Below are positions 1 through 12,852 of a stretch of 64,000 nucleotides of DNA, one piece after another. Source of the DNA: Deltaproteobacteria bacterium (GTDB taxonomy: Bacteria; Myxococcota_A; Polyangia; Polyangiales; Sandaracinaceae). Position 1 is the stretch's first letter. Every line of letters begins with the position of its first letter. The stretch lies in assembly GCA_017303575.1 (NCBI GenBank), contig JAFLCL010000017.1:1-64000 (forward strand), read 5' to 3'. Made by a program: the position numbers and the translations under genes. The notes below the pieces were generated by a model. That model was not told where the DNA came from, did no database searches, and worked only from the letters and a program-made list of their open reading frames with translations.

Positions 1-601
1 GCGTCCATACGGGGACGGGCGCCGCGGGCGGCGGGGTGATGGGCGACATCGCGGGCGAGCGCGCGGGCGACATCGCAGGTCGCGCCGAAGGGCCGGCCAT
101 GGTCGGCGCGTAGGCGGGCGTGTGGGGTGTCACCGCGCTCGGTGGGGGTGCCGGCGTGGGCGCGGGCGTCTGTCCCGCAGAGCTCGGGCTCGGTGGATCG
201 GCCACGAGCGCACCGAGCGCGAGCGCATCGATCACCGCGCGATCTGCGCGCCCCTTGCCGATCAAGGCGACGAGCGCGTTGCGATCGAGCAGTCGTCGAT
301 CGTTCATGCACGCGAGCAGGGCCTCGATCGCCTCGCCGCGTCGCATCTCGCGGAGCGCGGCGACGAACGCGCCTCCTGCGGCCGCCATCGGCATCACGAA
401 GCCGAAGAAGCCGCAGCACGCGAGCATCGCGTAGTCCCCGCTGCGGTGGACGGGGTTCTGCGGATCGAACATCGCGACGAGCACGAACGCGAGGCCGCCG
501 ATGCCGAGCACCAGCGGCAGGAGCGCGCCGCCGATCCAGAGGCCGCCTCGGAAGCGGTGCGACTGCACGGCCACGGCAGTCTTCGTCGGATCGACGTGCA
601 C
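1..601 (-). CDS. Hypothetical two-TM membrane protein (partial, C-terminus off window)
   Basis: Read on the minus strand from a GTG at 601, the frame stays open to the window edge, so only the first 200 or so residues are present. After a short polar N-terminus (HVDPTKTAVAV) there are two hydrophobic stretches, GGLWIGGALLPLVLGIGGLAFVL and, about 25 residues later, LACCGFFGFVMPMAAAGGAFVAAL (written here with natural breaks). A soluble helical segment follows (MRRGEAIEALLACMNDRRLL), then a Pro/Ala/Ser/Met-rich low-complexity tail. I do not recognise the family. The start is uncertain because no ATG lies upstream in frame; GTG 601 is the only conventional start before the first membrane segment. 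Codon third-position GC fits a real gene, unlike the overlapping plus-strand frames. Confidence 0.55.
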   Translation of the reverse strand, partial: MHVDPTKTAVAVQSHRFRGGLWIGGALLPLVLGIGGLAFVLVAMFDPQNPVHRSGDYAMLACCGFFGFVMPMAAAGGAFVAALREMRRGEAIEALLACMNDRRLLDRNALVALIGKGRADRAVIDALALGALVADPPSPSSAGQTPAPTPAPPPSAVTPHTPAYAPTMAGPSARPAMSPARSPAMSPITPPPAAPVPVWT

Positions 602-789
602 GGGCGCACGGTATCGCAGATCCCGCGGCCTCGATGGTCGATCCTGTGTGGCAGGACTCGCCCGTCCGCCGTGTGCGGGGCGTGCTCCGAATGGAGCGTG
701 CTGCCGACGTGCTTTCTCGACGCGTCGAGGTCCGCTACCCTCGACCTTCCGCTGGGCACACCGCCCTCCGCGCCTCTTCGGAGGAGTCG

Positions 790-2388
790 ATGCAGAGATT
801 CCGACGCTCCACGGCCGTGCTGCTGTCTGCCGGCCTGACGCTCGCTCCGCTCACCGCGTGCACCGGTGACCTCGATGCACCGCCGATCTCGGGCGGAGGC
901 TCGATCGCGCGCGACGATCGCCTGCCCGTGCGCGTGTGGCGCCTCAGCCCCTCCCAGCTCGACCGCGAGATCGAGCGCGTGCTCGGGCCCGGTGCGCCGG
1001 ACGTCATCCTCCCCGAAGGCGCACCCGATCACGGGATCACCAACATCGCGACGGGCGCGCAGATCGACGACGGCAACGCGTCGGTGCTCGCCGAGGGCAT
1101 CCGCGGCGTGGGCGTGTGGGCCGCCGACAACGGCGCCACGACCTCGCGCTGCGGCGCGACGTTCGGCACCGACGCGTGCATCGACACCTTCCTCGGTTGG
1201 TTCCCCGAGAGCGCCTACCGACGGCCGCTCGAGGCCGACGAGCGCGCAGAGCTGCGCACGCTCTACGACGAGCTGCGCACCGCCATCGACGCCGACTTCG
1301 CGTACGCGGGCCTGGTGCGTGCGGTGCTGCTCTCGCCCGACTTCCTCTACCGCACCGAGCTCGGCCCCGTGGGATCGAGCGAGGCACGCACCACACTCAC
1401 CGATCACGAGATCGCGACGCTGCTCGCGTTCACCGTCACGGATCAGGCGCCCGACGCGGAGCTGCTCGCGGCCGCGGAGGCTGGCGATCTCTCGGATCCC
1501 GACGCGCGCGAGGCGCAGCTGCGGCGCTTGCTCCCGAGCTCGGGCGCTGTGTGGCAGCGCTTCTTCTGGGAGTGGCTCCACATGGACACGCTTCGATCGC
1601 AGGCGATCGAGGTGGACCTCTCCGACGCGCTGCGCGAGCAGATGGAAGAGGAGTACGCCGCGTTCGTCGACCACGTGATCGTGGAGCAGCACGGCAGCTT
1701 CGGAGAGCTCTTCTCCGCGTCGTACACGTTCGCGCAGCCCGAGCTCGCGATGCACTACGGCGCGACGCACCCCGGCAGCGGCCTCCAGCGCATCGACCTC
1801 GACCCGATGGAGCGCGGCGGCCTCCTCACGCAGGGCGCGTGGCTCGTGGCGCACGGAAAGCTCGGTCGCGACAACGTCGTGCGCCGAGGCATGAACGTGT
1901 ACCGCGAGATCATGTGCAACGAGGTGATGGCCCCGGGCATCGACGTGGACGCGGCGCTCGCGGCGCTGGTGCCTGCGGGCGCGAGCGTGCGCGAGATCGC
2001 ACGCATCCGAGGGACGTCGGGCACGTGCGCGGGCTGTCACCACCTCGCCGATCCCGCGGGCCTGGTGTTCGAGACGTACGCGAGCGACGGCAGCTGGCGG
2101 ACCACCTACTCGGACGGTCGACCCGTCGAGCCCTCGATCGATCTCGAGGGCTTCGGCGCGTTCGAGCGCGCGCCCGACTTCACGATGGCGCTCACCGAGG
2201 ACAGCGCGGTGCGCTTCTGCATGGTGCGTCGCTTCGCGGCCTTCACGCTCGGCCGCGACCTCGGCCCCGCCCATCAGCTCACCTGGACCCGCGACGCGCA
2301 GCGCGCGATGCGCGAGAACGACGATCGGCTCGAGGAGCTGCTCGTCGCGATGGTCCGTCATCCCGCGTTCGTGGAGAGGCAGCGATGA
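790..2388 (+). CDS. DUF1592/DUF1588/DUF1585-type secreted c-haem-motif lipoprotein
   Basis: A 532-residue protein whose start is set by a strong GGAGGAG ribosome-binding site just before ATG 790. The N-terminus is a lipoprotein signal (LTLAPLTAC, lipid cysteine C24). The body matches the planctomycete/myxobacterial DUF1592-DUF1588-DUF1585 group. The DUF1588-like part carries RRGMNVYREIMC and then a single haem motif CAGCH (C413, C416, H417) in CAGCHHLADPAGLVFETY. The C-terminal DUF1585-like part has RFCMVRRFAAFTLGR. In other genomes this family sits next to DUF1552 genes, as here (2444-3922). The molecular function is unknown. The haem motif and export suggest an extracytoplasmic redox role, which is inference. 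Confidence 0.9.
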   Translation: MQRFRRSTAVLLSAGLTLAPLTACTGDLDAPPISGGGSIARDDRLPVRVWRLSPSQLDREIERVLGPGAPDVILPEGAPDHGITNIATGAQIDDGNASVLAEGIRGVGVWAADNGATTSRCGATFGTDACIDTFLGWFPESAYRRPLEADERAELRTLYDELRTAIDADFAYAGLVRAVLLSPDFLYRTELGPVGSSEARTTLTDHEIATLLAFTVTDQAPDAELLAAAEAGDLSDPDAREAQLRRLLPSSGAVWQRFFWEWLHMDTLRSQAIEVDLSDALREQMEEEYAAFVDHVIVEQHGSFGELFSASYTFAQPELAMHYGATHPGSGLQRIDLDPMERGGLLTQGAWLVAHGKLGRDNVVRRGMNVYREIMCNEVMAPGIDVDAALAALVPAGASVREIARIRGTSGTCAGCHHLADPAGLVFETYASDGSWRTTYSDGRPVEPSIDLEGFGAFERAPDFTMALTEDSAVRFCMVRRFAAFTLGRDLGPAHQLTWTRDAQRAMRENDDRLEELLVAMVRHPAFVERQR

Positions 2389-2447
2389 AGAAGCTCTCTG
2401 TTTCCGACGGGTCGCTCGGGTCTGGTCATCGCGGCGGTGCGCGATGA
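2385..2447 (+). other. Possible 20-codon coupling ORF between the DUF1592 and DUF1552 genes
   Basis: An ATG at 2385 overlaps the TGA of the upstream gene (ATGA, 2385-2388). Its 20-codon frame (begins MKKLSVSDGS) ends in a TGA at 2445-2447 that overlaps the ATG of the next gene (ATGA, 2444-2447). It therefore bridges the 55-bp gap exactly. It may be a translational-coupling minicistron or chance. No separate function is claimed. Confidence 0.35.
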
Positions 2448-3922
2448 CCCGACTCTCTCGCCGCGTCTTCGGCACGCTCTTCGGTGGCACCGCAGCTGCC
2501 GCTGCGCTGAGCCCCGGGTTCTTCCGCTGGCTCGAGCGCGATCTCGCGAGCGTGGCTTCGGCGCAGGACATGCGCGGACCGCCGCGCTTCTTGGCGGTGC
2601 GCACGCCGCACGGTGTCGATCGCGACTACTGGGTCCCCAAGGAGACGGCGGGCCACATCGACCCGCGGGGCACGGACGTGGCGCTCGGCGATCTCACGTT
2701 CGAGTACGACAACGCGATCCTCACGCCGCTCATGCCGTGGCGATCCCAGATCACCGTGCTCGACGGTCTCGACACGCAGGTCTGCAAAGAGGGCACGCGC
2801 GCCGACCGACGCACGTTCCACGGTCATCAAGAGCAGGGCTCGCTGCTCACCGGCGCGCAGCCGCCCGCCGACCGTGAGAGCGCGAACTACGACCATCACC
2901 ACTCGCTCGACTTCTATCTCCACGGCCGCATCGGCGCGCCGGCCCTGCTCACCGCGTGCGTCGAGGGCACCGGCGGCTGGAAGGCGATGAGCTACGACGA
3001 CAACGGCCTGCCCCGCGATCCGCAGTCGGATCCGGCCACAGTGTTCCGTGCGGCGTTCCCCGCCGACTACGACCCGGGCACGCCGATGGTCGACACCAGC
3101 GCGGGCGAGCGCTTGATCCTCGAGCACAACATCGCGCGCCTCACGCGCTTGCGGGATCGACTGACGGGGGCCGAGCGCATGCGTGTCGAGGCGCACCTGG
3201 CGGCGATGATGCGCCTCTTGCCGACGGGCACGATCGGCGGCTCGGGCGTGTGCACGACCCGCGGCTCCGACGTGCCCACGATCGGCGGCAGCGTTCGCTC
3301 GCTCGCCGATGTCGAGGCCGTGACGCGTGCCCATGCGCGCACGATCGCGCAGGCCTTCGCGTGCAACCGCTCGCGCGTCGCCACGCTGCAGATCCTGAAC
3401 GACTATCCGAACTGGCCCACGCTCTTGCCCGAGGTCGCGGCCGCCGCGAGCGCTGCGGGCTACGCCGCCGACTACCGCTTCCACGAGAACCTCGTGCACG
3501 ACTACTGGGGTGCGGCGGGACCGACGGTGCGCGCGGGCTACACGAGCGGGCTTCGCTGGCTCGCCTCGATGTTCGCGGCGGTGCTCGAAGAGCTCGACGG
3601 CATCGCCGATCCGCAGGACCCCAGCGGCGGCTCGATCCTCGCGAACACCGTGGTGTTCTGGCACAACGAGTTCGGGCACGACGGACACGACAACCAGCAC
3701 ACGCGTCATCCCGCCGTGATCGCCGGCGGCGGCGGACAGGTGCTCAAGCTCGGGCGCTACCTGCGTCTGCGCGACATCGCGAGCGATGCGCGCGTGCCTC
3801 ACAACCTCTTGCTCACGAGCATCGCGCATGCGATGGGCTTCGACGACGTCGACTACTTCGGCGATCGCGATCTCGCGGGTCGCGCGCAGTACCAGGGCCC
3901 GCTCGTCCCGCTGATGGTGTGA
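2444..3922 (+). CDS. DUF1552 family Tat-exported protein
   Basis: A 492-residue protein starting MTRLSRRVFGTLFGG. The twin arginine in SRRVFG, followed by a hydrophobic Ala-rich stretch and ending near VASAQ, is a typical Tat signal. The remainder matches the DUF1552 family: FLAVRTPHGVDRDYW, the TFHGHQEQGSLLTG region, and the C-terminal TVVFWHNEFGHDGHDN segment, which resembles DUF1501/sulfatase-like proteins. It lies directly after the DUF1592 gene and is probably cotranscribed with it, since the pair is conserved in Planctomycetes and Myxococcota. The catalytic role is unknown. The His-rich segments could bind metal, but that is inference. Confidence 0.88.
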   Translation: MTRLSRRVFGTLFGGTAAAAALSPGFFRWLERDLASVASAQDMRGPPRFLAVRTPHGVDRDYWVPKETAGHIDPRGTDVALGDLTFEYDNAILTPLMPWRSQITVLDGLDTQVCKEGTRADRRTFHGHQEQGSLLTGAQPPADRESANYDHHHSLDFYLHGRIGAPALLTACVEGTGGWKAMSYDDNGLPRDPQSDPATVFRAAFPADYDPGTPMVDTSAGERLILEHNIARLTRLRDRLTGAERMRVEAHLAAMMRLLPTGTIGGSGVCTTRGSDVPTIGGSVRSLADVEAVTRAHARTIAQAFACNRSRVATLQILNDYPNWPTLLPEVAAAASAAGYAADYRFHENLVHDYWGAAGPTVRAGYTSGLRWLASMFAAVLEELDGIADPQDPSGGSILANTVVFWHNEFGHDGHDNQHTRHPAVIAGGGGQVLKLGRYLRLRDIASDARVPHNLLLTSIAHAMGFDDVDYFGDRDLAGRAQYQGPLVPLMV

Positions 3923-6616: not shown

Positions 6617-7198
6617 TCACACGACGAACTGGAACGTCATGCGGTGCGGTTGGTTCGGTACGTAGCAGCAGGGCGAGGGGCCCGACGCCAAGAGGAGGGA
6701 CGGTCGAAACCAGGGGTCGCTGTCGTTCTGCGGATCCCCAGGGAAATACAGCTGGGTCGTGAGCACGGGCCGGCCGTTCGCGTGCACCTTCGCGTGAAGA
6801 TGCGCAGGCCGGTACGCGCCGCCGTTGAGGTAGCGACCGGGCACGATCGTCTCGACCCGGAAGATGCCGTTCGCGTCGCAGCGGACGATGCCCCGGTAGC
6901 GATCGCCGTCGAGGTCGTACTCGCCGTGCTCGTCCGCCTGCCACAGCTCGATCGTGGTGCCGCGCAGCGGGCGGCACGCGGCGTCCGTGACCCTGCCGCT
7001 GATCACGAGCGGCGCGCTCGCCATCTCACCGACCAACCGTGATCGAAAGGGCGCGCCCGGGCGATAGAACGGTCCCTCGATGTTGGGCTCGGTCGGCGCG
7101 GCGGCGCAGGCCTGCGCGAGCACGAGCCGCGAAGGACCGACGAGCGCGAGGCCTGCGAGCGATCCGAGCCCTGCGAGGAGGAGATGGCGACGTTGCAT
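6617..7198 (-). CDS. Secreted intradiol ring-cleavage dioxygenase-like protein
   Basis: A 193-residue protein. ATG 7198 is chosen because an AAGGAG site precedes it and a signal-like sequence follows (MQRRHLLLAGLGSLAGLALV, with a twin arginine, ending near LAQA). The mature part is the compact intradiol dioxygenase fold: TEPNIEGPFYRPGAPFRS, ELWQADEHGEYDLDG, and PGRYLNGGAYRPAHLHAKV. Expected ferric ligands are present: Y94 (or Y101), Y123, H133 and H135. Cytoplasmic catechol dioxygenases are longer, and exported forms of this size are common in Myxococcota and actinobacteria. Substrate unknown. Its upstream region carries an element (7218-7253) shared with the small secreted protein gene at 10969-11301. 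Confidence 0.88.
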   Translation of the reverse strand: MQRRHLLLAGLGSLAGLALVGPSRLVLAQACAAAPTEPNIEGPFYRPGAPFRSRLVGEMASAPLVISGRVTDAACRPLRGTTIELWQADEHGEYDLDGDRYRGIVRCDANGIFRVETIVPGRYLNGGAYRPAHLHAKVHANGRPVLTTQLYFPGDPQNDSDPWFRPSLLLASGPSPCCYVPNQPHRMTFQFVV

Positions 7199-7217: not shown

Positions 7218-7253
7218 CCGAACGCACACGCTCCGCGACCGGCGCACGAAAAG
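7218..7253 (-). promoter_or_regulatory. Conserved upstream element, copy A (putative alternative-sigma promoter)
   Basis: Read on the minus strand: block 1 CTTTTCGTGCGCCGGTCG, 8 variable bases, block 2 GTGCGTTCGG, then 19 bases including AAGGAG to ATG 7198. The same two blocks, spacer length and distance to ATG occur at 11321-11356. The block separation fits -35/-10 elements of an ECF-type promoter. Confidence 0.6.
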
Positions 7254-7259
7254 AGACCG

Positions 7260-10109
7260 TCACTCCCACGGAACACGAGCGCCGTACGCGCCCGAGCCAG
7301 CCGGGTGGTAGACCTGGGCCGCTGGCGGCGTGATCGCCGCATCAGGGGGCTCGGGGCTGGGCGGGGCCGCGGGTGCGATCACTGGCTCGACCACGGTCGC
7401 TGTGACGCCTGCGTCGGCGGGCGCGAGATCGATCGACGGCGTGGTGTCGTCGGGCCGCGCGACGAGGATCCGCGGACGCTGCGCCGTCGTGACGAGGCTC
7501 TGTGGGCTCGGGCTCGGAGCCCTCGCGTCGAGGCGCGCGAGCTCGGCGCGCACGTCCGCCTCGAGCTCGAGCTCGTGCAGCGCCTGCGCGGACTCGAGCG
7601 TCCTGAGCAGCGCCTCGCGGGCCTCGGTGAGGCGACCGAGCGCGGCGAGCGCGCGTCCGAGCACCAGATCCTCGCTCGCCACGCGCTTGGCCTCCACGCC
7701 CACGCGGCTCCGATCGATCGCGAGCGCGGCGCGGATCTGTACGAGCGCGACATCGGCGTTGCCCTCGTCGAGCTCGAGCAGCGCGAGGTTGTGGTGCACG
7801 AGCGCAGCGTCACCGTGATCGGCCGCCACGAGATCGGGCAGCGCCTCCGCCCAGAGCGCGCGTGCAGCCCCGAGGTCGTGGCGATCGAAGGCGACGAGGC
7901 CGAGGCTGTTGCGCGTGAGGGCCGCCTCGGGGTGATGGGTGCCCAGCGATGCCGCAGCGATCGCGAGCGCGCGCTCGTAGCGCGCGGTGGCCTCGTCGAG
8001 ACGGCCCAGACGACGGAGGATGCCTCCGACGTTGTGGAGGTCGCGCCCCACGCGCGGATGCGCCTGCCCGAGGGTCGCCTCGTCGATCGACAGCGCCTGC
8101 TCGTGCTCCGCGAGCGCGTCCTCGAAGCGCCCCTCGAGGCGCGCGAGGTTGCCGAGGCTCGCGTGCACCACCGCACGCTCGAGCGAGCGTGGTCCGAGGC
8201 GCGCGTCGATCGCGCGCGCTGCCTCGTCGAGATCCATGTGTGCCTGCGCGAGCTCGCCGAGCCCGATCCGGATCGTCGCGCGGACGCGGAGAAACGCCTC
8301 GACGTCGTCGTCGCGCTGCGGGCCACGCTGGCGCGCAGCCTCCGCGTGCGCGAGGAAGTCGCGCGCCTCCATGTAGCGACCGCTCGCCCCCAGCACGCGG
8401 AGCACCTCGAGCCACGCGGCGCTCGTGCCGGTCGCATCTCGCTCGTCCTCGGCGAGGAACAGCGCGGCTCGGGCGGCCGAGAGCGCGTCGTCGTAGCGCG
8501 CCTCGGCGCGGAGGGCGCTCGCGCGGAGGAGTTCCCGCTCGATGCGGATCGCGGCTGGGAGCGTGGTCGCGTCGCGCTCGCTCACGAATTTTAGCGCCTC
8601 TCTGGCCTCTCCGCGTGCGAGCGACAGCGTCGCGCGATCGATCTCGGCGCGGGCTCGGCGTGCGGCTTCGTCCTCTGCTGGTCCCACGGGGATCGCACCG
8701 CCGCAGGCCTCGGGCGCCGGGAGCGCCGCGAGCAGCTCGGGCGCGCTCGCGAAGCCCTCCGCAGTGAGAAGGTCCTCGACGATCGCGCTCGCGCGGCTCG
8801 CGCCTCGATCGAGGCACTGCACACGCGCGTCGAGAAGCGCCGGCGACTGCTCGTGGCGCACGTGCGTCGCCTCGCAGGCGTCGCGCCGCGCGTCGATCCA
8901 TCGAGCGGACCACCGCGCGAGGCTCGGCTGCAGGGTCTGAGGCACGCGCTCCCGCTGCGACCCGTCGAGTTGCGTCTCGAGCGCGTGCTCGCTCGCGCGG
9001 CAGAGCGCCTCGCCCTCGAGCGGCGCGCCGCGCGAGGCGATCGCCAGAACGCCCAGCACGCCCAGACCGACCGCGCCGGCCACGACCCAGCGTCCATGCG
9101 TCTCTCTCGGTTCGAGCGCAGCGAGCAGCACATGCATCGTGGGAAAGCGGGCTTCGGGCCGGGGCGAGAGGGCACGACGCAGCGCTCGGTGCATCGCGCG
9201 CGGCATGCGACGCGGTGTGGGAGGACCGGCCTCGATCCTCGTTCGCAGCTCGGAGACGCGCTGCGCGCCTGCGAACGGCCGCGTCCCCTCGATCGCCTCC
9301 CACAGCGTCACTGCGAACGCGAACTGATCGGCGCGCGCGTCGCTGGCCGCACCGCGTACGTCGCCGTCGCGGGTGATCGCCCGATCGATCTGCTCGGGCG
9401 CCATGTACGCAGGGGTCCCGATCAGCGCGCCTGTCTGGGTCAGCGTGCCGGACAGCATCGAGCGGTCGAGACGAACGCTCGCCTCGGTCGCGTCCTCGTG
9501 CGCGAGCCCGAAGTCGACGACCTTCACCCGACCGTCGTCACCGAGCAGCACGTTCTCGGGCTTGAAGTCTCGGTGCACGATGCCGGCGCCGTGCGCTGCC
9601 GCCAGACCTCGTCCTGCGGGCAGGAGGATGGCGAGCGCCTCCGCGGGCTCGTGCGGCCTCGACATCCACGGGCGCAGGCTCGCGCCGCGCACGAGCTCCA
9701 TCGCGAGGTAGAGCGTGTCGTCCTCCACGCCGACGTCGAAGACGGTGACGACGTTCGGATGTGTGAGGCGTGCGAGCGCCTGCGCCTCGCGGAGCAAGCG
9801 TGCGCGCTGGGTCGGGTCGTCTGCGGTGCGGAGGCGCTTGATGGCGATCTCGCGATCGAGCTCCGGATCGTAGGCGACGTGCACCGTGCCCATCGCACCT
9901 TCGCCCAGAACCTCTCGTAGCTCGAAGCGACCGAGGCGCGTGGGCGCGGCGCGTGTGCGCCCCGTGGCGACGATGCCGGACGCGAGCGTCGCCACCACGT
10001 CCTGACAGCTCTCGCACCCGTCGAGGTGCAGATCAGCCGCGGCCAGCGAGTCGCCGTCGAGGCGACCTTCGAGGAGCGCGAGCAGGATCTCGTCGTCGGG
10101 ACACACCAC
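7260..10109 (-). CDS. Ser/Thr protein kinase with N-terminal anti-sigma-type zinc motif and TPR-rich C-terminus
   Basis: A 949-residue protein starting at GTG 10109 (GTG 10106 also possible). Residues 1-45 carry H28-x3-C32-x2-C35 in DLHLDGCESCQ, the zinc signature of ZAS anti-sigma domains. The kinase domain spans about 60-320: G-loop GEGAMG, K91, catalytic HRDFKPEN (D181) and DFG (D199), so it looks active. A membrane helix (WVVAGAVGLGVLGVLAIA) lies near residue 340, followed by about 500 residues of TPR-like helical repeats (for example HPRVGRDLHNVGGILRRLGRLDEA) and a Pro-rich tail. It is divergent from a sigma-70-like gene with only 27 bp between the starts. I infer a kinase/anti-sigma fusion acting on that sigma factor. 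Confidence 0.9.
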   Translation of the reverse strand: MVCPDDEILLALLEGRLDGDSLAAADLHLDGCESCQDVVATLASGIVATGRTRAAPTRLGRFELREVLGEGAMGTVHVAYDPELDREIAIKRLRTADDPTQRARLLREAQALARLTHPNVVTVFDVGVEDDTLYLAMELVRGASLRPWMSRPHEPAEALAILLPAGRGLAAAHGAGIVHRDFKPENVLLGDDGRVKVVDFGLAHEDATEASVRLDRSMLSGTLTQTGALIGTPAYMAPEQIDRAITRDGDVRGAASDARADQFAFAVTLWEAIEGTRPFAGAQRVSELRTRIEAGPPTPRRMPRAMHRALRRALSPRPEARFPTMHVLLAALEPRETHGRWVVAGAVGLGVLGVLAIASRGAPLEGEALCRASEHALETQLDGSQRERVPQTLQPSLARWSARWIDARRDACEATHVRHEQSPALLDARVQCLDRGASRASAIVEDLLTAEGFASAPELLAALPAPEACGGAIPVGPAEDEAARRARAEIDRATLSLARGEAREALKFVSERDATTLPAAIRIERELLRASALRAEARYDDALSAARAALFLAEDERDATGTSAAWLEVLRVLGASGRYMEARDFLAHAEAARQRGPQRDDDVEAFLRVRATIRIGLGELAQAHMDLDEAARAIDARLGPRSLERAVVHASLGNLARLEGRFEDALAEHEQALSIDEATLGQAHPRVGRDLHNVGGILRRLGRLDEATARYERALAIAAASLGTHHPEAALTRNSLGLVAFDRHDLGAARALWAEALPDLVAADHGDAALVHHNLALLELDEGNADVALVQIRAALAIDRSRVGVEAKRVASEDLVLGRALAALGRLTEAREALLRTLESAQALHELELEADVRAELARLDARAPSPSPQSLVTTAQRPRILVARPDDTTPSIDLAPADAGVTATVVEPVIAPAAPPSPEPPDAAITPPAAQVYHPAGSGAYGARVPWE

Positions 10110-10136
10110 GTCGGCCTCGTTCTATCGTAGGGGGAA

Positions 10137-10985
10137 ATGAACGACCCCGTGCGCGCCTATGCCGAGGCCCGAGGGCTGCCGGCGCTGTCCGTCGAGGACG
10201 AAGCGCGCCTGGGGGCGCTGCTCGCCGTGGGCGCGGAGAGCGAGCTCGCGGGCGATCCGCGCGAGCTCGCGATCGCCCTCGCTCACCTGCCCGCGGAGCC
10301 CAGCGCGATGCGCGACGACGACGTGCGAGAGCTGGTGCTCGCCCTCGCTTGCGATCGAGGCGAGCCCGCGGCCCTGCGCGAGCTCGAGCGTGCGTATGCC
10401 CCCGCTGTGGAGGCGGCGCTGCGCGCGATGAAGCTCGACGACGACGCGCGCGCCGACGTCTGGCAGGAGGTGAAGGCCAAGCTCCTCGTGCGCGAAGGCG
10501 GCCCCATCCGTCTCGTGTCCTACGCGGGCCGCGGCACGCTGCGTGGTTTGCTGAAGGTCACCGCGACGCGAACGGCGCTCACGATGATGCGTGACAGCCG
10601 ACGCGAGCGACCCCACGAGCCGCACACGATGGAGGCGGCTGCGGGCGAGGCCGCGGAGCTCGACTTCGTGAAGGTCGGCGCGCGCGCGGCGTTCCGCGAG
10701 GCCTTCGCGAGCGCGATCGAGACGCTCGATCCGCATGCACGCAACCTCTTGCGCCTGCACCACTTGCGTAAGGTCGGTCTCGAGCAGCTCGCGACGATGT
10801 ACGGCGTGCACCGCGCGACGATCGTGCGGCAGCTCGCGGCCGCGCGCGCGCAGGTGGAGCGCGAGACCGGCAAGGCTCTGCGTGCGCGCCTCGACCTCGA
10901 GCGCGGCGAGGTCGAGGACGTGATCGATCTCGTGCGGAGCCACTTCGACGCGAGCGTCGAGCGCCTGCTCAAGACCCAGACGTAG
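10137..10985 (+). CDS. Sigma-70 family-like RNA polymerase sigma factor
   Basis: A 282-residue protein with a GGGGG purine run just before ATG 10137. The middle part (LRELERAYAPAVEAALRAMK and ARADVWQEVKAKLLV) resembles sigma region 2. The C-terminal HTH (LEQLATMYGVHRATIVRQL, preceded by ETLDPHARNLLRLHHLRKVG) resembles region 4 of ECF-like factors. It is longer than typical ECF factors (about 190 aa), with an N-terminal extension of about 75 residues and a C-terminal tail. This form is common in Myxococcota. It is divergent from a kinase with an anti-sigma zinc motif. Genes on both outer flanks carry the same 36-bp upstream element, which I infer to be its target promoter. Confidence 0.82.
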   Translation: MNDPVRAYAEARGLPALSVEDEARLGALLAVGAESELAGDPRELAIALAHLPAEPSAMRDDDVRELVLALACDRGEPAALRELERAYAPAVEAALRAMKLDDDARADVWQEVKAKLLVREGGPIRLVSYAGRGTLRGLLKVTATRTALTMMRDSRRERPHEPHTMEAAAGEAAELDFVKVGARAAFREAFASAIETLDPHARNLLRLHHLRKVGLEQLATMYGVHRATIVRQLAAARAQVERETGKALRARLDLERGEVEDVIDLVRSHFDASVERLLKTQT

Positions 10986-11301
10986 GCGCGACGGGTGAAG
11001 GGCGCGCGCGCCAGCCTGTGACCGTCCAGCGACCCTGGGCCTCGGTCAGCGTCAGCGTGTGCAGCCTTCCGTTCCAGCGGATGAGCGTGTGCGCCGTCCC
11101 CTCTGCGATCGACACGGACTCCACCGACCACGACGTGTCGGTGCCCCTCGGCTCGTGCTGGGCGAGGTATTGGTAGGCCGCGCCCGTCACGAAGTCCTCG
11201 GGCGACATCGAGTACGAGCCCCCACAGGCCTGAGCCCGAGGCAGCGGCGAGAGAACGAGCGAAACGAGCAGAGCGACGGCGATCGTGGTGATGGTCCGCA
11301 T
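10969..11301 (-). CDS. Small secreted hypothetical protein
   Basis: A 110-residue protein starting at ATG 11301 behind a clear AAGGAGG. A Sec signal (MRTITTIAVALLVSLVLSPL) ends near PRAQA, and the mature part begins CGGSYSMSPEDFVTGAAYQYL. The rest (SWSVESVSIAEGTAHTLIRW, then a short Pro-rich tail) is likely a small beta-rich domain, possibly SnoaL/NTF2-like, but I do not recognise it. Its 3' end overlaps the sigma gene by 17 bp on the other strand. Its upstream element (11321-11356) matches that of the dioxygenase-like gene, so the two are probably co-regulated. Confidence 0.75.
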   Translation of the reverse strand: MRTITTIAVALLVSLVLSPLPRAQACGGSYSMSPEDFVTGAAYQYLAQHEPRGTDTSWSVESVSIAEGTAHTLIRWNGRLHTLTLTEAQGRWTVTGWRARPSPVAPTSGS

Positions 11302-11320
11302 GGGAACCTCCTTCTGATCG

Positions 11321-11356
11321 CCGAACGCACGCCCCACCCGACCGGCGCACGAAAAG
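11321..11356 (-). promoter_or_regulatory. Conserved upstream element, copy B (putative alternative-sigma promoter)
   Basis: Minus strand: CTTTTCGTGCGCCGGTCG, 8 variable bases, GTGCGTTCGG, then 19 bases to ATG 11301. All 28 block bases match copy A at 7218-7253, while the 8-base spacer differs at most positions. That pattern indicates selection on the blocks rather than recent duplication. Confidence 0.6.
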
Positions 11357-11533: not shown

Positions 11534-11953
11534 ATGCGCCACGCGACGTTCGAGGTCTTCTTCGATGGTGACTGCCCGCTGTGCGTGCGCGAGATCCGCA
11601 TGCTCAGGCGGCTCGATCGACACGGCCGCGTGCGCTTCACCGACATCGCGGATCCTCGTTTCGACCCCGCGCGCGTAGGGCTTCCTCCCTGGCAGACGCT
11701 CATGGATCGCATCCATGGACGACGCCTCGACACCGGCGAGGTGGTGGAGGGCGTCGAGGTCTTTCGTGCGCTCTACGAGGCGGTCGGCCTGGGCGTGCTG
11801 GTCCGGCTGACGCGGCTCGGCGTGGTCGATCGACTGCTCGATCGCGCCTACCACGCGTTCGCCTCCCGCCGCCTTCGGCTCACGGGGCGCTGCGACGATC
11901 GAGGGTGCGCGCTCCCGCGTCGGGCGCCGCTCGGGGAGCTCGCCCCCCGATGA
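11534..11953 (+). CDS. DCC family (DUF393) thiol-disulfide oxidoreductase-like protein
   Basis: A 139-residue protein starting at ATG 11534, eight bases after GGAGGT. The opening [23 protein letters not shown] is the diagnostic DxxCxxC of the DCC/DUF393 family, a predicted thioredoxin-fold oxidoreductase. The remainder ([36 protein letters not shown]) matches family structure. The substrate of this family is generally unknown. The stop overlaps the start of the next gene (ATGA, 11950-11953), so it is translationally coupled to the CarH-like regulator. Confidence 0.9.
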
Positions 11954-12852
11954 AGCCCGACCGCGCGCAGACGTTTCCGATGCGTGTCGTCACACGCATG
12001 ACGGGCCTCACGGCCGACGTGGTCCGCGTGTGGGAGCGACGGTACGGCGCGATCACACCCGCCCGCACCGAGGGCAACGCGCGCCGCTACTCCTCGCACG
12101 ACATCGAGCGACTGACGCGTCTCCGAGACGCGATCGCTGCGGGCCACTCCATCGGAGACATCGCGAACCTCGCGGACGCACGCCTCACCGCGCTGGCCGC
12201 ATCGCGCGATCCGATCACCGAGACGCGGCCGATCCTCGCGCCGTACCTCGAGGCGATGTCGGAGCTCGATCTCCCACGCGGCGAGGCTCTCCTCGCGCGA
12301 GCCTCGCAGCTCCTGGGCCCGCGGGCGATGGTGCTCGACGTCGTGCTCCCGCTGCTGCGTGAGGTGGGCGACCGCTGGGTCGCCGGCAAGCTCACCGTCG
12401 CGGAGGAGCACGCGGTGAGCGCGCAGATCCGCGCGCACCTGGCGGTCCTCTTGCGAACCACGGTGCTCCCCACGGGTGCGCCACGCGTGGTGTTCGCGAC
12501 GCCGCCAGGCCATCGCCACGAGCTCGGTGCGATGATGGCCGCCGTGCTCGCGAGCGCCCGCGGGGTGAGCCCCATCTATCTCGGCCCCGACGTTCCGTTC
12601 GAGGAGGTCGAGGGCGCCTGCCTCCGATCGCGCGCCACCGTCGTGGTGCTGTCGGTGCTGACGCTGCACGAGAGCGCCGTCGATCGTCGACACGAGCTCC
12701 GAGCGATGGAGAAACTCTCGGAGCGCATCGAGACGTGGGTGGGCGCCCCCCCTGGCCATCCCGCGCTGGACGCGAAGGGTGTTCGTCCGATGAGCGACTT
12801 CGCGGCGTTCGAGGCCGCGCTCACGCATCGCTTCGGCGTCGCTGGCAGCTGA
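11950..12852 (+). CDS. MerR-family B12-binding regulator (CarA/CarH-like light-sensing repressor)
   Basis: A 300-residue protein. Residues 9-75 form a MerR winged helix ([43 protein letters not shown]). Residues 95-170 are the helical cobalamin cap with the W-x9-E-H signature (W143, E153, H154 in [14 protein letters not shown]). Residues 178-295 are a Rossmann-type B12-binding domain with the lower-ligand motif GHRHELG (H190). CarH/CarA proteins bind adenosylcobalamin in the dark, repress target promoters and release DNA in light. All B12 residues checked here are present, so a photoreceptor role is likely. No carotenoid genes lie nearby. The only coupled gene is the DCC-family one. Confidence 0.9.

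Follow-up and report, generated by a model that had tools for sequence, protein, structure and literature searches.

A two-block promoter-like element linked to a TIGR03001 sigma factor and a kinase with a predicted zinc anti-sigma domain

This study concerns a short two-block DNA element and the four genes around it in a Deltaproteobacteria bacterium of the Sandaracinaceae (assembly GCA_017303575.1, contig JAFLCL010000017.1), a soil-type bacterium related to the myxobacteria. The whole stretch of DNA analysed, 64,000 nucleotides in length, is referred to as the window. A dioxygenase gene (6617-7198, minus strand) is followed by a gene for a 949 amino acid long Ser/Thr kinase (7260-10109, minus strand), a divergent gene for a 282 amino acid long sigma factor of the extracytoplasmic function (ECF) type (10137-10985, plus strand) and a gene for a small exported protein (10969-11301, minus strand). 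These four gene calls had already been made, correctly, in a preliminary description of the sequence, which also proposed that the dioxygenase gene and the small gene are targets of the sigma factor and that the kinase is its controller.

Two minus-strand copies of the element, CTTTTCGTGCGCCGGTCG-N8-GTGCGTTCGG, were confirmed, one at 7218-7253 and one at 11321-11356, each 19 nucleotides upstream of an ATG. All 28 block bases match between the two copies; the 8-nucleotide spacers and the flanks differ, and the two downstream genes show no sequence relationship. This arrangement had been noticed by eye, together with the lack of further copies and the unrelatedness of the two genes, and each of these observations held. 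The window contains no third copy at up to three mismatches (0 expected from shuffles), and neither an exact match nor one at this tolerance exists elsewhere in the 9,386,669 bases of the assembly; the motif thus occurs at this locus only, with the proviso that a copy may have been overlooked because the assembly is fragmented (540 contigs) and about 94% complete. Read as promoters, the copies consist of a predicted -35 box TGCGCC, a 16-nucleotide spacer and a -10 box CGTTC. The boxes lie at 7241-7246 and 7220-7224 in predicted promoter 1, upstream of the dioxygenase gene, and at 11344-11349 and 11323-11327 in predicted promoter 2, upstream of the small gene, with an AT-rich tract directly upstream of the -35 box in both.

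When the regions around relatives of the sigma factor were compared, near-identical elements were seen in several families, preceding the small gene, the dioxygenase gene or both. What does not vary over 16 sites is TGCGCC followed, after 16 bases, by CGTTC (CATTC at one site), and an A/T tract directly precedes the -35 box. These 16 sites served to train a weight matrix, which, with a score of 15 or above taken as positive, detected further sites, often as two divergent ones in the interval that separates the small gene from the dioxygenase gene. In a tree of the sigma factors, the 14 loci at which the motif was initially detected are all members of one clade (96/91), with none outside it. 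When occurrences of TGCGCC-N(k)-CGTT with each k from 8 to 24 were tallied in the loci of this clade and at unlinked dioxygenase genes, 45 sites had k = 16 and between 0 and 5 had each other k, the 45 including sites counted twice in overlapping contigs or loci as well as those that first revealed the spacing. TIGR03001 loci outside the clade contain the N16 spacing three times in 572 kb. Variants exist within the clade systems: both targets of G056 have the same altered -35 box (GCGTC), which counts in favour of the promoter interpretation, and G167 has a CATT variant at the -10 position.

Spacing and weight matrix were derived from the same loci, and fair tests of the linkage to the sigma clade are the independent ones. 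An alignment-based scan of contigs yielded 47 loci, many of them new, where a query with the single protein P0003 had found nothing. Among the new loci, 11 of 12 with a sigma identity of at least 40% were motif-positive, as against none of 24 at 38% or below (Fisher 2.0e-8, a P value that serves as a guide only because related loci are not independent draws). G181 was placed inside the clade after more sigma factors had been added, and two sites were subsequently detected at its locus; G096, which lies next to the clade on a long branch, has one weak site. Motif-bearing dioxygenase genes on other contigs occur in G045, G052, G128 and G056, all of which have a clade sigma factor. In 15 other genomes, which yielded no clade sigma factor, none of the dioxygenase genes carries the motif; three of these genomes (G133, G138 and G015) have TIGR03001 sigma factors that were left out of the tree. 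In the relatives, the motif follows the sigma orthologues and lies just upstream of start codons. By this comparison over dozens of related genomes, the two elements are almost certainly sites read by the adjacent sigma factor, and the proposal that they are its target promoters is supported by spacing, clade linkage and the targets in trans. The accompanying idea of a self-contained unit fits the source genome and fails in the relatives that have targets on other contigs.

The sigma factor is a member of NCBIfam TIGR03001 (RNA polymerase sigma-70 factor, Myxococcales family 1; Sig-70_gmx1), scoring 188.2 bits against a curated cut-off of 154.6, and is the single member above this cut-off in the source genome. 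It also matches the ECF profile TIGR02937 (46.4 bits, cut-off 42.9), with the Pfam families Sigma70_r4 and Sigma70_ECF both below cut-off. Among the papers searched for TIGR03001, none names the family and none reports a promoter or target for it. Two boxes separated by about 16 nucleotides are the geometry expected of an ECF promoter, with which the geometry of the element and its linkage to the sigma gene appear by comparison to agree.

The neighbouring kinase combines a putative N-terminal zinc anti-sigma domain with a Hanks kinase domain (Pkinase, 2e-39), one transmembrane segment (amino acids 341-359) and a TPR region (TPR_12, 8.7e-22). The N-terminal domain (amino acids 1-36; 10002-10109, minus strand) has the arrangement C3-x24-H28-x3-C32-x2-C35, which corresponds to the zinc anti-sigma signature (PMC7406223). 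C3, H28, C32 and C35 are invariant, and in a structural model the H-x3-C-x2-C part is carried by predicted helices 19-31 and 33-48. All 17 orthologous kinase N-termini matched zf-HC2, and their profile matched RslA (3hug, 8e-7) and ChrR (2q1z, 0.008) in the PDB. A Foldseek search with an AlphaFold2 (AF2) model of the domain returned anti-sigma factors or their sigma complexes as the first 14 matches, with weak E-values (0.05 upward) owing to the shortness of the domain. All 30 loci of the clade in which this part of the kinase is readable carry the signature. TIGR03001 loci outside the clade have it in 26 cases, a kinase lacking it in 8 and no readable kinase in 11. None of the 29 next-best kinases of the source genome contains it. 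With 150 or more Ser/Thr kinase matches in this genome, proximity of a kinase means little by itself; what is informative is that the domain is shared and the divergent gene order conserved. By comparison, the kinase N-terminus appears to be a class-I zinc anti-sigma domain, from which we infer binding and inhibition of the sigma factor, and the suspected role of the kinase as the sigma factor's controller has gained support. The C-terminal end of the kinase (7260-7320, minus strand; GSGAYGARVPWE) resembles the kinase ends of G067 (GSGSYGAGQPWE) and G037 (GSGSYGPSQRWTP), possibly reflecting a conserved extracytoplasmic tail.

Taken together, it is highly probable from these comparisons that the locus comprises a two-block promoter of the adjacent TIGR03001 sigma factor, a kinase that controls this sigma factor through its anti-sigma domain, and two exported outputs. 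Several observations weigh against this interpretation. No motif was found in the clade loci G130 (6.8-kb contig) and L229 (3.4-kb contig), the unlinked dioxygenase gene of G181 is without motif, and the weak site beside the sigma gene of G003 has no gene behind it. The usual ECF -35 box contains AAC, and TGCGCC is atypical in this respect. The core TGCGCC-N16-CGTTC alone shows no enrichment in the source genome (16 matches versus 15 in reversed controls); this loose core is at background level and therefore cannot be used to pick outside targets or to extend the regulon. A tighter core gave 27 matches over 184 genomes versus 12 in reversed controls, and 13 of the 27 lie at sigma loci or their targets (one counted twice in the overlapping contigs C162 and C278 of G003). 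The remaining 14 are approximately at background; at least two of them (G038 C9 and G109 C416) lie within dioxygenase genes, on the opposite strand and close to the codons for RPAHIH. The core match on G068 C25 was rejected as a chance hit, the weight matrix having found nothing at that locus. Finally, the anti-sigma domain might either inhibit the sigma factor or merely dock it for phosphorylation.

In the docking case, the kinase would activate the sigma factor by phosphorylating it directly, as EcfP/PknT of the ECF43 group do, and the zinc domain would only hold it to the kinase. Comparable ECF-kinase gene pairs are known, the kinase gene adjoins the sigma gene as in ECF43 systems (divergent, 27 bp between start codons) and the kinase retains its HRD and DFG motifs. 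In ECF43 sigma factors, however, Thr replaces the acidic motif of region 2.2, whereas the clade sigma factors keep acidic residues there (ADVWQE, DEVxQ) and have no conserved Ser/Thr in this region. Activation by a phospho-Thr in place of these residues is therefore not supported, and the anti-sigma factors matched by the fused zinc domain are inhibitory ones. We consider direct phosphorylation unlikely as the means by which the sigma factor is activated.

The two blocks could also represent an operator of an ordinary DNA-binding regulator. The second block likewise starts with GTGCG in the source genome and in some f1 relatives, which creates a direct repeat, GTGCG-N15-GTGCG, that a repressor or activator might bind. 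Outside f1, however, the GTG before CGTT is not kept (CTCGTTC, CGCGTTC, TTCGTTC), and the element is asymmetric, has a rigid 16-nucleotide spacer, lies at promoter distance and tracks the sigma clade. In nine targets, the start codon follows exactly 7 nucleotides after the -10 pentamer CGTTC (several have the variant CGTTT or CGTTG), as expected for leaderless mRNAs with transcription starting at the start codon. Most other targets have 18-40 nucleotides between the -10 box and the start codon and a purine-rich Shine-Dalgarno sequence. Two such classes of distance agree with transcription starting about 7-8 nucleotides after CGTT and would be unusual for an operator, an explanation that we regard as very improbable. 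A recent duplication or a functionless repeat would account for the 28 of 28 identical block bases in the window, yet spacers and flanks differ, the element is found again at orthologous genes in several families, where the flanks have diverged, and it persists in front of a decayed small gene in G122, leaving this explanation with a negligible probability.

The promoter interpretation does not appear to include the sigma and kinase genes themselves. Their 27-bp divergent start region (10110-10136) contains TAnnnT-like elements and no copy of the motif (15 loci compared), and the absence of the motif from both genes implies that the unit does not look autoregulated. In most loci, a TAnnnT element is found a few nucleotides upstream of the sigma start, which suggests constant, housekeeping expression of the two genes, possibly with a leaderless start.

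Predicted target 1 (6617-7198) is a 193 amino acid long, Tat-exported intradiol ring-cleavage dioxygenase (Pfam Dioxygenase_C, E 2.6e-23, above cut-off). Its twin arginines (R3 R4) and the positions Y45, Y123, H133 and H135, predicted to provide the two Tyr and two His iron ligands of intradiol dioxygenases, are invariant in nine orthologues, and the nearest solved structures are 9yh9, 4ilv and 4ilt. Predicted target 2 (10969-11301) is a 110 amino acid long exported protein with a signal peptide ending in AxA and a subsequent invariant Cys-Gly; the A-x-A-C-G sequence is invariant in 11 orthologues. It has no Pfam match, its profile matches NTF2-like chains, and an AF2 model (predicted local distance difference test score, pLDDT, 79) shows weak NTF2-like matches. 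The orthologues share only the signal peptide, the Cys-Gly and a putative NTF2-like fold of low similarity. At the loci L221, L225, L226 and L228, larger exported proteins (146-246 amino acids) bear the motif and have a signal peptide followed by Cys-Gly, and the Cys-Gly family thus extends beyond the small protein. The small target gene of G122 (L119:7700-8035, minus strand) has apparently decayed, with a broken frame and a retained promoter-like element. G007 has an additional predicted target downstream of the kinase gene (L049:11570-12475, plus strand), a 301 amino acid long exported protein with its own motif copy. The motif also precedes a gene for a 261 amino acid long protein ahead of the dioxygenase gene in G182 (L121:3768, plus strand) and a gene for a 183 amino acid long protein in G181 (L211:8152, plus strand), both proteins lacking a Pfam match.

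In the most likely mechanism, the cytoplasmic N-terminus of the kinase would hold the sigma factor at the membrane by means of its zinc anti-sigma domain. An extracytoplasmic signal, acting via the transmembrane/TPR part and the kinase domain, would release or activate the sigma factor, which could then transcribe the genes of two extracytoplasmic proteins, the Tat-exported dioxygenase and the small NTF2-like protein with its N-terminal Cys-Gly. The comparisons themselves establish the motif, its spacing, its linkage to the sigma clade, its targets and the anti-sigma domain; from them we infer that the elements act as promoters, that the sigma factor is sequestered, that phosphorylation plays a part and that such a signal exists. 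From the dioxygenase, an aromatic or catechol-like compound can be guessed as signal or substrate. The chances appear even that such loci form a separate class of ECF system, in which a single membrane protein serves as both zinc anti-sigma factor and Hanks kinase, the sigma factor bound by its N-terminal domain is freed by its own kinase activity, and the clades each use a promoter code of their own and a minimal regulon of exported proteins. TIGR03001 systems appear to fuse anti-sigma and kinase controls; if true, two signalling mechanisms that are usually described apart would be joined. With a conserved promoter sequence and an output of two genes at hand for this myxobacterial family of sigma factors, the mechanism can be tested by a simple reporter, and relatives of the sigma-kinase pair are present in Myxococcus strains, where genetics is possible. 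A motif seen by eye in raw sequence has in this way led to a predicted regulon through comparison.

On the sigma side of the locus, a plus-strand gene (11581-12852) encodes a MerR-type helix-turn-helix and two B12-binding domains (Pfam), which we take to be the make-up of CarH-like B12 photoreceptor regulators. Two plus-strand genes within 127-3922 have planctomycete-type domains, namely PSD4/PSCyt3/PSD5/PSD2 (DUF1592, DUF1588, DUF1595, DUF1585) and HXXSHH (DUF1552). Flanking minus-strand open reading frames without Pfam match are probably wrong-strand predictions, the real genes being on the plus strand.

Among known systems, the EcfG-type promoters of alphaproteobacteria (GGAAC-N16-CGTT, with CATT tolerated at -10; PMC7083833) share the two-box asymmetry, the 16-nucleotide spacer and a -10 CGTT that allows CATT. 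In contrast to EcfG, the predicted promoters have the GC-rich -35 box TGCGCC instead of GGAAC, the sigma factor belongs to a different family and has few targets, no NepR/PhyR was seen and there is no sign of autoregulation at this system. The dioxygenase resembles secreted intradiol dioxygenases (PDB 4ilt/4ilv; the spider-mite enzymes, PMC9167512) in being exported and single-domain with four ligand residues, and differs from them in its predicted control by an ECF sigma factor. Class-I zinc anti-sigma factors such as RslA, ChrR and RsiW share the H-x3-C-x2-C motif and the three-helix fold with the kinase domain; different from these proteins, the domain is fused here with a Ser/Thr kinase, a transmembrane segment and a TPR region in one protein. 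A description of such a fusion was not found in the literature searched, which did not cover the 2021 ECF re-classification and may have missed a prior report. The ECF43 pairs EcfP-PknT of Vibrio parahaemolyticus and EcfK-PknS of Xanthomonas citri (PMC8999054, PMC13147305) likewise have an ECF sigma gene beside a gene for a transmembrane Hanks kinase. In contrast to these pairs, the kinase described here bears a predicted anti-sigma domain and the sigma factor keeps its acidic region-2.2 residues, whereas kinase-linked ECF sigma factors are described as lacking an anti-sigma factor (PMC8999054). Thus, the system appears to resemble ECF sigma factors with a membrane anti-sigma factor and to share the gene pairing of kinase-linked ECF sigma factors, the fusion of the two probably being its unusual part.

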